Assembly (NCBI GenBank): GCA_003162635.1
Contig: PMNE01000049.1
Span: forward strand, 67,806-102,208
Direction: 5' to 3'
Length of the DNA stretch: 34,403 nt
DNA from: Ignavibacteriota bacterium
GTDB lineage: Bacteria > Bacteroidota > Ignavibacteria > UBA10030 > UBA6906
Under the pieces are notes generated by a model, which was not told the origin of the DNA, did not search any database, and saw nothing but the letters and a program-made list of their open reading frames with translations. This document shows, piece by piece, positions 12,930 through 21,640 of this stretch (its first letter is position 1; each line of letters starts with the position of its first letter). A program made the translations under genes and the position numbers.

Positions 12930-13002
12930 GCACCCATGGCTCAATTGGTAGAGCAACTGACTCTTAATCAGTGGGTTCCAGGTTCGAGTCCTGGTGGGTG
13001 CA
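12930..13002 (+). tRNA. tRNA-Lys (anticodon CTT)
   Basis: A full cloverleaf can be folded: acceptor GCACCCA 12930-12936 with TGGGTGC 12995-13001; D-stem GCTC/GAGC; anticodon stem ACTGA/TCAGT around loop CTCTTAA with anticodon CTT at 12963-12965; T-stem CCAGG/CCTGG with loop TTCGAGT; discriminator A at 13002. No CCA is encoded. The last 12 bases of the T-arm and acceptor region (12989-13000) recur at 14962-14973 as part of a direct repeat. Confidence 0.97.
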
Positions 13003-13048
13003 CAACCGATTGACTATGGTCAATAGACTATCGTCAATCGACATGGCC
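12989..13048 (+). repeat. Left copy of tRNA-proximal direct repeat (attL-like)
   Basis: It starts with the last 12 bases of the tRNA before its final C and continues downstream. It contains the 8-bp inverted arms CGATTGAC and GTCAATCG, and an inner ATTGAC-TATG-GTCAAT hairpin. The right copy at 14962-15028 matches it with three mismatches after the tRNA part and a ~7-base insertion. Weaker similarity at constant offset (1980) reappears up to about 13098. Confidence 0.75.
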
Positions 13049-13128
13049 TGACGACTGGGTGTTCTTTTCCCCCCCCCCATTCTCACCACACACAGCCCAC
13101 AACCCATTTACTTCTGCCCCTCGTTTGC

Positions 13129-14946
13129 ATGCCGGTGCAAGAACAAAACGTCCATTCGTTTCACATTCCCGTTCTTGGACTGGCATTCTCCATCGATACT
13201 CCCCTGCGGGTAGCGCGTTTTGGTATCGCCTCGGTGATCTCCATTGTCGACGACATACTCATCGAACGGATGCGGGAGTATTACTCGAACCTCTACAGCA
13301 AACCGTACATGGCCATTAATCAGAAAGAGGAAGATTACCGTGCGCGGAGGATCACCGCCTACCTCAATCTCGTGAACCAGATCGTCCATGAGCAGTGGAC
13401 AAAGCTGAAGGCCTCTCCCTTCGAGAAGGGGAGCGAAATCGTGAAGTACTTCGAGATGCTTGCTGAACACTCTCCATTGAAGGCCCTGTACCGGAGATTG
13501 GCGGTGGCACACGAGGCTGTTTACCGTGCAAGCCTGGAAAACGAACTTCGGTCCCGGATCGTCGTCGGTGCGATCGATGTGAACATTATGACGAAACTCG
13601 ACAAGGTCAACCGCCCCGCATCTGAATCGGAAGCGGTTCCGGACTCATCAGATGCCGTGGCCGCTCTCCGGGGCTTCGTGCGAAGTGAACTTGATTCGTC
13701 CGTCGTCCTCTCTGCAGGTCTCAATCCGCGTTTGTTCAACTACATGGAACGTTGCCCGGAGTTTCTTCCGGGTCAGGACGGTACATCGCCGAAGAGGGTG
13801 ATCTTGAAAGTCAGCGACTACAGATCCGCCTCGATTCAAGGAAAGATCCTGGCGAAGAAGGGAATCTGGATTTCGGAGTTTCACATAGAATCAGGCCTGA
13901 ATTGCGGCGGGCATGCCTTTGCGACTGAGGGCTTGTTGCTCGGACCGATTCTGCAGGAATTTAAGGAGAAGAGGGAATCCCTGATTTCCGATCTGCACGA
14001 GCTCTATTGCGCCGCCCTGCGGGAGAAAGGACACAACGTTCCCTCGGAGCCCAGGCCAGTTCGCATCATGGCTCAGGGAGGCATCGGGACGACAGAGGAA
14101 GACGAATTTTTGCGTGAGTACTTCGAAGTGGACGGAACGGGGTGGGGCTCGCCTTTTCTTCTGGTTCCGGAGGCGACCAACGTTGACGAACGGACCAGGG
14201 CCAAGCTCGCTGCGGCCGGCAAAGAGGATCTCTATATCAGCGACGCATCGCCACTCGGCGTGGCTTTCAATAATCTACGGGGCAGCTCCAGTGAAGAGCT
14301 GATTCGCCGACGTGTTGTGGAAGGAAGGCCTGGGAGTCCTTGCACCAAGAAGTATCTCGTCTCCAATACCGAGTTCACGAATGAACCGATTTGCACTGCT
14401 TCGCGTCAGTACCAGTCGCTGAAGATCAAGCAGCTCCAAGGACTGGATTTATCAGCAGAAGAGATCAAATTCCGCATCCAAAAGGTTGTGGAAAAATCAT
14501 GCCTCTGTGAGGATCTTGCTCCGTCTCCGTGTCTCCGAAACGAATTGGAGGACAAACGCGCTTCTCATGCAGTTGCGGTCTGTCCCGGTCCCAATATTGC
14601 CTATTTCTCCCGTATTGCCACGCTGGAGGAGATGGTGGGGCACATCTATGGGCGACTCCAACTGATATCCGTGCCCGATCGGCCGAACCTGTTTATTAAT
14701 GAACTGCGGCTCTACATCGATTATTTGAAGAACGAGATCGGAAAGAAGCTGGGATCGCTGACGTCGAACGAACAGAGGTATCTGACGACGTTCCGGGAGA
14801 ATCTGCAGGAAGGGATCGAGTATTACCGGTCCCTTGTCCCCAGGATGTCGAAAGAGACCGAGCGGTACCGCGATATCATACGAACACAGTTGCATGAGCT
14901 GGAACTGGAACTGGAGATGCAGGTCATCCCTTCGCCCGGGATCTAG
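13129..14946 (+). CDS. Conserved hypothetical protein, 605 aa, possible FMN-type barrel
   Basis: I do not recognise this family with confidence. The N-terminus HIPVLGLAFSIDTPLRVARFG and the mid-protein stretches AQGGIGT (residues 315-321) and DGTGWGSPFLLVPEATN resemble loops of flavin-binding TIM barrels such as nitronate monooxygenase-like enzymes, but this is only a resemblance. NCGGHAFATEG has Cys259 and His262. Six more Cys cluster in the C-terminal part (405, 422, 458, 460, 468, 485), including a CLC pair, which could bind metal or an Fe-S cluster. The last ~110 residues look helical. There are no signal peptide, no clear membrane helices and no integrase motifs. The gene stands alone between direct repeats next to tRNA-Lys. 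ATG 13129 is the first usable start, but no good ribosome binding site is visible. Confidence 0.85.
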   Translation: MPVQEQNVHSFHIPVLGLAFSIDTPLRVARFGIASVISIVDDILIERMREYYSNLYSKPYMAINQKEEDYRARRITAYLNLVNQIVHEQWTKLKASPFEKGSEIVKYFEMLAEHSPLKALYRRLAVAHEAVYRASLENELRSRIVVGAIDVNIMTKLDKVNRPASESEAVPDSSDAVAALRGFVRSELDSSVVLSAGLNPRLFNYMERCPEFLPGQDGTSPKRVILKVSDYRSASIQGKILAKKGIWISEFHIESGLNCGGHAFATEGLLLGPILQEFKEKRESLISDLHELYCAALREKGHNVPSEPRPVRIMAQGGIGTTEEDEFLREYFEVDGTGWGSPFLLVPEATNVDERTRAKLAAAGKEDLYISDASPLGVAFNNLRGSSSEELIRRRVVEGRPGSPCTKKYLVSNTEFTNEPICTASRQYQSLKIKQLQGLDLSAEEIKFRIQKVVEKSCLCEDLAPSPCLRNELEDKRASHAVAVCPGPNIAYFSRIATLEEMVGHIYGRLQLISVPDRPNLFINELRLYIDYLKNEIGKKLGSLTSNEQRYLTTFRENLQEGIEYYRSLVPRMSKETERYRDIIRTQLHELELELEMQVIPSPGI

Positions 14947-14961
14947 GCTGTTCATGCGGGA

Positions 14962-15028
14962 TCCTGGTGGGTGGAAAACCGATTGACAATGGGCTATCGT
15001 CAATAGACTATCGTCAATCGACCTGGCC
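14962..15028 (+). repeat. Right copy of tRNA-proximal direct repeat (attR-like)
   Basis: It opens with TCCTGGTGGGTG, identical to 12989-13000 in the tRNA T-arm/acceptor, then AACCGATTGAC and, after a short insertion relative to the left copy, TCAATAGACTATCGTCAATC. The same 8-bp inverted arms are present. It lies 15 bases after the stop of the 605-aa gene. Weaker similarity continues to about 15078. Confidence 0.75.
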
Positions 15029-15415
15029 AAACCGTCTGACCGTTCTGCTTCTCGCCTCATTCCTACCACGCACGCCCTTCAGCCTCTTCGCTCTCCGCGT
15101 TTCCTTGCCACCATTCGGACTTCTGCAGCTTTCGCTGAAGAAAGTACCGGCATACCCGTCACGGATAGGCGGGGCTAAAATACGACGATTTTGCGCCCTC
15201 AAGGCCAAACTGAATGATGACCAGGTTCCTAACCCGCCATCAGGGCAAATTTTTGCACCCAAAACGGAACCATCATGCACCTCTCTGGGTTCTTAAGGGA
15301 GTGTTCGCGTCCCGGAACAGGAGGGGAGACAGATCTCTGGGTTGACGGGAATCTTGACCCGTGCCCTCATTCCGCAGGCCGCCAAATCATACATACCCAC
15401 CTAAAGGAGTACCTC
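15029..15415. other. Non-coding stretch between the repeat and the exported-protein gene
   Basis: No convincing gene is seen on either strand. The first part is C/T-rich and aligns weakly with the sequence after the left repeat. ACGGG 15345-15349 can pair with CCCGT 15358-15362. The last 34 bases form a leader shared with the paralogous gene at 21272. The promoter of the 15416 gene should lie here, but I cannot place it. Confidence 0.4.
15382..15415 (+). promoter_or_regulatory. Duplicated leader with strong ribosome binding site
   Basis: CCAAATCA, then a CCCAC-T/A-TAAAGGAG block, precedes the ATG; AAAGGAG at 15403-15409 is 6 bases from the start. The same layout precedes the paralog (21237-21271), so the 5' leader was duplicated with the gene. 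Confidence 0.6.
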
Positions 15416-15787
15416 ATGGCCAGATTCTTGTCTCTCGTGGCAGTAATGACATTGTGTCTCGTAGTTGGTGTGAGGGCGCAAGACAAGATGATGAAGGCAG
15501 CCACGGACGGGAAGGTGACGGTCGTTGTCACACACGAGGTGAAGGACTACGCCACGTGGCGGAAAGGTTATGATGCGGACGCGGGCAACCGCAAGAAAGC
15601 CGGATTCAAAGTGACGGGCGTGTATGCTGATGTGAATAATCCAAACATGGTCTCCATTATCGGCGAATTCCCGAGCGCGGCGGCGGCAGACGCCTTTGCG
15701 ACCAGTCCTGTGCTGAAAGACGCGATGGAGAAGGCCGGCGTCATAGGCAAACCTGACGTCAAAGTGCTGACGGCGAAGTTAAAGTAA
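15416..15787 (+). CDS. Small exported protein, dimeric α/β-barrel (ABM-like), copy 1
   Basis: 123 aa. Residues 1-21 are a signal peptide (MARFLSLVAVMTLCLVVGVRA, likely cut before QDK). The mature part is one compact α/β domain: a strand (VTVVVTHEVKDY), then ATWRKGYDADAGNRKKAGFKV, a central strand around VSIIGEF, and a helix PSAAAADAFATSPVLKDAMEKAG. The pattern resembles the dimeric ferredoxin-like barrels of antibiotic-biosynthesis-monooxygenase relatives, with no catalytic residues that I can name. A paralog about 80% identical is encoded at 21272-21640. The pair brackets the sensor-kinase cluster. Role unknown; a periplasmic location is inferred from the signal peptide. Confidence 0.82.
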   Translation: MARFLSLVAVMTLCLVVGVRAQDKMMKAATDGKVTVVVTHEVKDYATWRKGYDADAGNRKKAGFKVTGVYADVNNPNMVSIIGEFPSAAAADAFATSPVLKDAMEKAGVIGKPDVKVLTAKLK

Positions 15788-21271: not shown

Positions 21272-21640
21272 ATGACCAGACTCTTGTTTCTCGTCGCAGC
21301 AATGACGTTGTCTCTCGCTGTCGGTGCGAGGGCACAAGACACGATGATGAAACCAGCCCACGAAGGGAAGGTTCTTGTTATTGTCACACACGAAGTGAAG
21401 GACTACGCCACGTGGCGGAAGGGTTATGATGCGGACGCAAGCAACCGCAAGAAAGCCGGTTTCAAAGTGACGGGCGTGTATGCTGACGTGAATAATCCAA
21501 ACCTGATCTCCGTTATCGGCGAATTCCCGAGCGCGGCGGCGGCGGACGCCTTCACGACGAGTCCTCTGCTGAAAGATGTGATGGAAAAGGCCGGTGTCAT
21601 AGGCAAACCTGAGATCAAGGTCCTCGCGAAGCCGAAATAG
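21272..21640 (+). CDS. Small exported protein, dimeric α/β-barrel (ABM-like), copy 2
   Basis: 122 aa. The signal peptide is MTRLLFLVAAMTLSLAVGARA, then QDTMMKP. The mature domain is nearly the same as copy 1 (15416): HEVKDYATWRKGYDAD, SNRKKAGFKVTGVYADVNNP, IGEFPSAAAADAF and VMEKAGVIGKPEIKVL are shared or almost identical. Differences are concentrated in the signal peptide, the first mature residues and the extreme C-terminus, a sign of constraint on the folded domain. It lies 116 bases after the phosphatase gene, with its own strong ribosome binding site. A perfect hairpin follows its stop by 34 bases. Function unknown. Confidence 0.82.
   Translation: MTRLLFLVAAMTLSLAVGARAQDTMMKPAHEGKVLVIVTHEVKDYATWRKGYDADASNRKKAGFKVTGVYADVNNPNLISVIGEFPSAAAADAFTTSPLLKDVMEKAGVIGKPEIKVLAKPK

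Follow-up and report, generated by a model that had tools for sequence, protein, structure and literature searches.

What placed a single gene between an intact tRNA-Lys(CTT) gene and a downstream copy of the same tRNA's 3′ end? The window, i.e., the whole 34,403-nucleotide stretch analyzed here, is part of contig C108 of a 3.1-Mb genome (G000) assembled in 113 contigs, and the sequences compared with it are MAGs with fragmented contigs. Upstream of tRNA-Lys(CTT) stands the conserved block xseA-xseB-dxs-...-ribD-ribE-secG. This gene order, continuing into tRNA-Lys, is retained in most relatives, and the content 3′ of the tRNA varies.

A repeat of the tRNA-Lys 3′ end and its flank brackets one gene

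The sequence TCCTGGTGGGTG, located at position 12989 in the 3′ end of tRNA-Lys, is found again at 14962. The preliminary description had claimed such a recurrence 1.97 kb downstream (the spacing of the repeat starts), and this was confirmed: the direct repeats at 12989-13048 and 14962-15028 share 84% identity, and a 60-base query searched against the whole 3.1-Mb genome matched C108 82767-82833, corresponding to window positions 14962-15028, with E=8e-15. In contrast, the constant offset that had been reported between the copies did not hold, as it was measured at 1973 and then 1980, a shift that occurs because the palindrome of copy 2 holds 7 extra bases. The features of the locus are:

12930-13003, forward strand: intact tRNA-Lys(CTT), detected by ARAGORN and found in the same gene order in relatives
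12989-13128, forward strand: repeat copy 1, from tRNA nt 60 onward with palindrome, trailer, and flank; aligns with the tRNA-Lys flank of G013 and G014 to 13128
13007-13040, forward strand: imperfect palindrome CGATTGAC...GTCAATCG, a member of a dispersed family, with a CGATTGAC/GTCAATCG hairpin and 33 exact core matches
13129-14946, forward strand: 605-aa ORF with a predicted FabX/PfaD/FabK/nitronate monooxygenase-like fold and no family match
14962-15106 (end approximate), forward strand: repeat copy 2, with 12 bases of the tRNA 3′ end, the palindrome with 7 extra bases, and flank, as defined by the repeat match and flank alignment

The repeat unit runs from tRNA nt 60 to ~125 bases beyond the tRNA. 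Its suspected extension past 60 bases was thus real, but the repeat is not bounded at ~60 bases, reaching 13128 in copy 1 and ~15106 in copy 2. Copy 1 ends at the base directly before the ATG of the 605-aa ORF (13128), and copy 2 starts 16 bases past its stop codon (14962). When aligned with the tRNA-Lys 3′ flank of G013, window positions 12983-13128 scored 90, with the alignment stopping directly before the ATG, and the flank of copy 2 scored 48 against the same stretch, to ~15106. Compared with shuffles, the shared-flank alignments gave p=0.003-0.006 and the copy-to-copy flank alignment p=0.006. The tRNA part alone comprises 12 bases and was only slightly above chance (score 24 versus an opposite-strand maximum of 21 in a 3-kb search), and the significance of the repeat therefore rests on the whole unit. 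As initially described, one gene lies between the copies, the 605-aa ORF (13129-14946) being alone there, and the reported absence of an integrase agrees with a whole-genome PF00589 search, which gave no match in the segment. No promoter-like sites were found between 12800 and 15420. Elsewhere in the window, similar small secreted-protein genes (15417-15787 and 21275-21640) flank a two-component gene cluster.

The unit combines a dispersed palindrome with locus-specific sequence

Two components can be distinguished in the repeat: a dispersed palindrome core and a locus-specific part, consisting of the tRNA end, which precedes the palindrome, and the tRNA-Lys flank, which follows it. The palindrome is composed of 7-base units, with CGATTGAC and GTCAATCG forming the hairpin, and its core has 33 exact matches in the genome versus 0 for the reversed control. 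The search for the repeat at other tRNA genes proposed in the preliminary description was fruitful in part, with palindrome copies found after tRNA-Leu(GAG), tRNA-Arg(ACG), and tRNA-Arg(TCG); however, most copies are not near tRNAs, others following protein genes and some standing 3′ of stop codons. A dispersed family unrelated to tRNAs had been named as an observation that would argue against integration at the tRNA. This applies to the palindrome core, which is dispersed with copies away from tRNAs (33 versus 0 for the control), but not to the tRNA end and trailer, which are specific to the locus. Matching tRNA ends at second copies were significant for Lys, Leu, Arg, and Met (contig C6), and tRNA-end remnants ahead of the palindromes of C8, C24, C29, and C35 were not above shuffles. 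The palindrome as the sole cause of the repeat was excluded, since the tRNA end and flank were copied as well; it may rather have been a passenger, present in the trailer before the duplication.

Two further observations concern this family. The palindrome occurs in frame within T9SS sorting domains (C35:20288, C39:606, C24:16740, C24:21139, and C81:5785), yielding peptides like TIVNRQLTIVKVYDVLG. Genes for 23S rRNA IVP (PF05635) adjoin palindrome clusters in both of the two cases in the genome (C8:20935-21549 and C77:1-850).

The gene between the copies resembles a metabolic enzyme

The 605-aa protein gave no match in Pfam, NCBIfam, PHROG, or PADLOC, and no relatives of it were found in phage, plasmid, and viral-contig collections; support for the cargo being a recombinase, a defense protein, or a phage protein was thus absent from all of these searches. 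The AF2 model of the protein (pLDDT 85) aligned with H. pylori FabX (VIA Z 27, 330 residues, rmsd 3.4 Å) and also with PfaD, FabK, and nitronate monooxygenases, and its Foldseek matches were weak. Judging from this model, the protein looks like an ordinary FMN-type reductase or metabolic enzyme and not like the product of a mobility gene, the fold alone being no proof of function.

The gene was found in 17 of the 41 genomes searched, its own included, and no intact tRNA-Lys was present within the fetched flanks of the gene among the relative loci examined. In the sister genus, it is found 5.2 kb from tRNA-Lys, on the downstream side, in G005 and 118 bases past a decayed tRNA-Lys 3′ half in G013, positions from which the link between gene and locus may predate the genus split. 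Similarity to the genes of G005 and G013 starts at the start codon, so the regions upstream of those genes are absent here, and it runs, by eye, ~10 bases past the stop codon, to where the tRNA copy starts. The gene is 82% similar to that of G005, a level resembling that of core genes, and therefore need not be foreign.

Relatives show a hotspot of integration at tRNA-Lys(CTT)

The uninterrupted, single-copy site that the preliminary description proposed to look for in relatives does exist: in G013 (C211) and G014 (C108), the tRNA-Lys flank is uninterrupted, present as a single copy, and without the gene. A single repeat copy is also found in G016, with the palindrome at the same position. Among 60 genomes, clear flank matches were found at tRNA-Lys only (G013, G014, and G001), plus two matches with E of about 0.01. 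From these alignments, it follows that the unit is host flank and that the gene lies where two units meet. The flank that G013 and G014 have in common may in its turn have moved, so that the "empty site" is an alternative allele that leaves the ancestral state unproven.

Pieces of tRNA-Lys in displaced positions were present in five relatives (G004, G012, G013, G014, and G030), the cut being at the anticodon loop in most of them. Among the halves, the 3′ ones (G004, G013, and G014) start at nt 30-32 and the 5′ ones (G014 and G004) stop at nt 39-42, boundaries that would be expected if recombination took place in the anticodon loop. The 5′ halves adjoin broken ORFs that were integrase-like by eye only, with no integrase domain by Pfam and only E=0.22 for one ORF with PHROGs. 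The trailer and vapBC-like genes are 92-97% alike in G013 and G014, versus 81% for secG; the sequence of this trailer-vapBC segment, and not of the 605-aa gene, suggests that exchange may have taken place at the tRNA-Lys locus. We conclude that integration in this family has a hotspot at tRNA-Lys(CTT).

Tandem copies and a second single-gene segment occur at other tRNA genes

A comparable arrangement was found at tRNA-Ser(GCT) on contig C21 (L240 401-3350), where one MgtA-like gene, encoding an 891-aa P-type ATPase, is followed by a copy of the tRNA-Ser 3′ end. This 59-nt copy of the 3′ end and trailer stands just past the ATPase stop codon (83%, E=6e-11), in a layout that matches the Lys segment, but without the palindrome. 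None of the relatives examined carries mgtA beside tRNA-Ser. With tRNA genes masked, same-strand copies of tRNA 3′ ends scoring at least 24 were found at 4 of 33 tRNAs, versus 0 for the opposite-strand controls. Cargo-free copies in tandem or near tandem, spaced by about 86-127 bases, follow Arg(ACG), Arg(TCG), Leu(GAG), and Thr(CGT), showing that duplication alone does occur, and copies lie about 105-109 bases after tRNA-Lys in G012 and G030. Separately, two tRNA-Leu(CAG) genes 1.7 kb apart enclose one outer-membrane protein gene (C81, L243 4152-5979).

Origin of the segment

The account that we tentatively favor, as the likeliest of those considered, is that one gene was inserted long ago at the tRNA-Lys(CTT) hotspot, when DNA recombined across the 3′ end of the tRNA and the adjoining flank. 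The incoming DNA, which probably came from the corresponding locus of a relative, would have carried the gene together with another tRNA-Lys 3′ end and its flank, and would have recombined with the resident copy via RecA or a tyrosine recombinase acting in trans, leaving the tRNA intact, the unit duplicated, and the gene between the copies. The segment holds no recombinase, and no donor molecule was found. In view of the 84% identity between the copies, we judge the segment to be an old and inert scar; nothing indicates present mobility. The scar of tRNA-linked integration initially proposed is retained in the form of an insertion scar without integrase, with gene-less alleles and a hotspot, but the duplication also took in the flank between the tRNA and the start codon. 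A simple integrase insertion is unlikely, since it puts foreign sequence between tRNA and gene where host flank is found here; likewise, a classical island with foreign arms is disfavored by host flank on both gene sides.

Less probably, though still possibly, the tRNA 3′ end and flank were duplicated in tandem and illegitimate recombination trapped a neighboring gene at the junction or moved it there. Host flank on both gene sides would be explained in this way, and the near-tandem copies (about 86-127 bases) after Arg(ACG), Arg(TCG), Leu(GAG), and Thr(CGT), as well as those about 105-109 bases after tRNA-Lys in G012 and G030, are in line with it. However, this scenario takes two events, the coding sequence would have to fit the junction exactly, and tRNA-Ser/mgtA would demand the same coincidence again. 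Insertion by recombination is slightly preferred because of this Ser/mgtA parallel and of known additive tRNA cassettes.

We regard as doubtful that the segment is what remains of a classical tyrosine-integrase island that occupied tRNA-Lys and lost its integrase. The relatives' tRNA-Lys halves cut at the anticodon loop and the seemingly integrase-like broken ORFs beside the 5′ halves are compatible with such an island, as are a PF00589 tyrosine recombinase fragment with a stop codon at C108:112810-112998, ~32 kb downstream of tRNA-Lys and outside the window, and the T/J-type sites recorded by Islander, which would fit nt 60. Nevertheless, identity continues for ~125 bases past the tRNA, as host flank on both gene sides, and the broken ORFs lack a Pfam integrase domain, PHROGs giving only E=0.22 for one. 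More improbable still is a general mode in which tRNA 3′ ends and flanks are portable units that capture single promoterless genes without integrase, behind tRNA promoters, as could be imagined for Lys/605-aa gene and Ser/mgtA. Finally, independent insertion of the palindrome after the tRNA and after the gene is highly improbable, for although its core is dispersed and follows stop codons elsewhere, in copy 2 the palindrome is preceded, at the same place, by 12 exact tRNA-Lys bases and is followed by the tRNA-Lys flank.

Relation to known systems and significance

The E. coli tyrT repeats, associated with RtT RNA, are tandem units that start with a tRNA 3′ end. The Lys units begin in the same way but are not adjacent, lying 1.97 kb apart with a 1.8-kb gene between them; near-tandem copies are found at other tRNAs. 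Like REP-type palindromes (PMC3733652), the palindromes here are short, dispersed, and often after genes; in contrast to the REP/RAYT system, no Y1_Tnp gene is present in this genome and no GTAG tag was seen. With the tRNA islands of Islander (PMC4383910), the Lys segment shares an intact tRNA, a same-strand 3′ fragment downstream, and relatives with gene-less alleles. It differs from them in having no integrase (PF00589, whole genome), a homology that extends ~125 bases past the tRNA instead of being confined to the tDNA, and a length of 1.97 kb rather than at least 2 kb. Additive cassettes of flexible genomic islands, with tell-tale tRNA repeats, have been described at tRNA genes of Ca. Actinomarinales (PMC7771536), and fGI-2 at the tRNA-Lys(ctt) of Methylophilaceae is another additive cassette at a tRNA (PMC10872708). 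The Lys segment resembles them in that the content beside tRNA-Lys varies in relatives and a gene-less allele exists, and it departs from them in being old (84%) and in having a repeat that includes ~125 bases of flank and the palindrome. The best reading is that the segment belongs to this known kind, the additive tRNA cassettes.

These results document tRNA-Lys(CTT) as a hotspot of integration within a family of uncultured, Ignavibacteria-like bacteria. Single-gene insertions of the type seen at tRNA-Lys would be overlooked by standard island finders, with their requirement for an integrase and a length of 2 kb, and the two single-gene cases (Lys and Ser) in one genome make their mode of origin testable.
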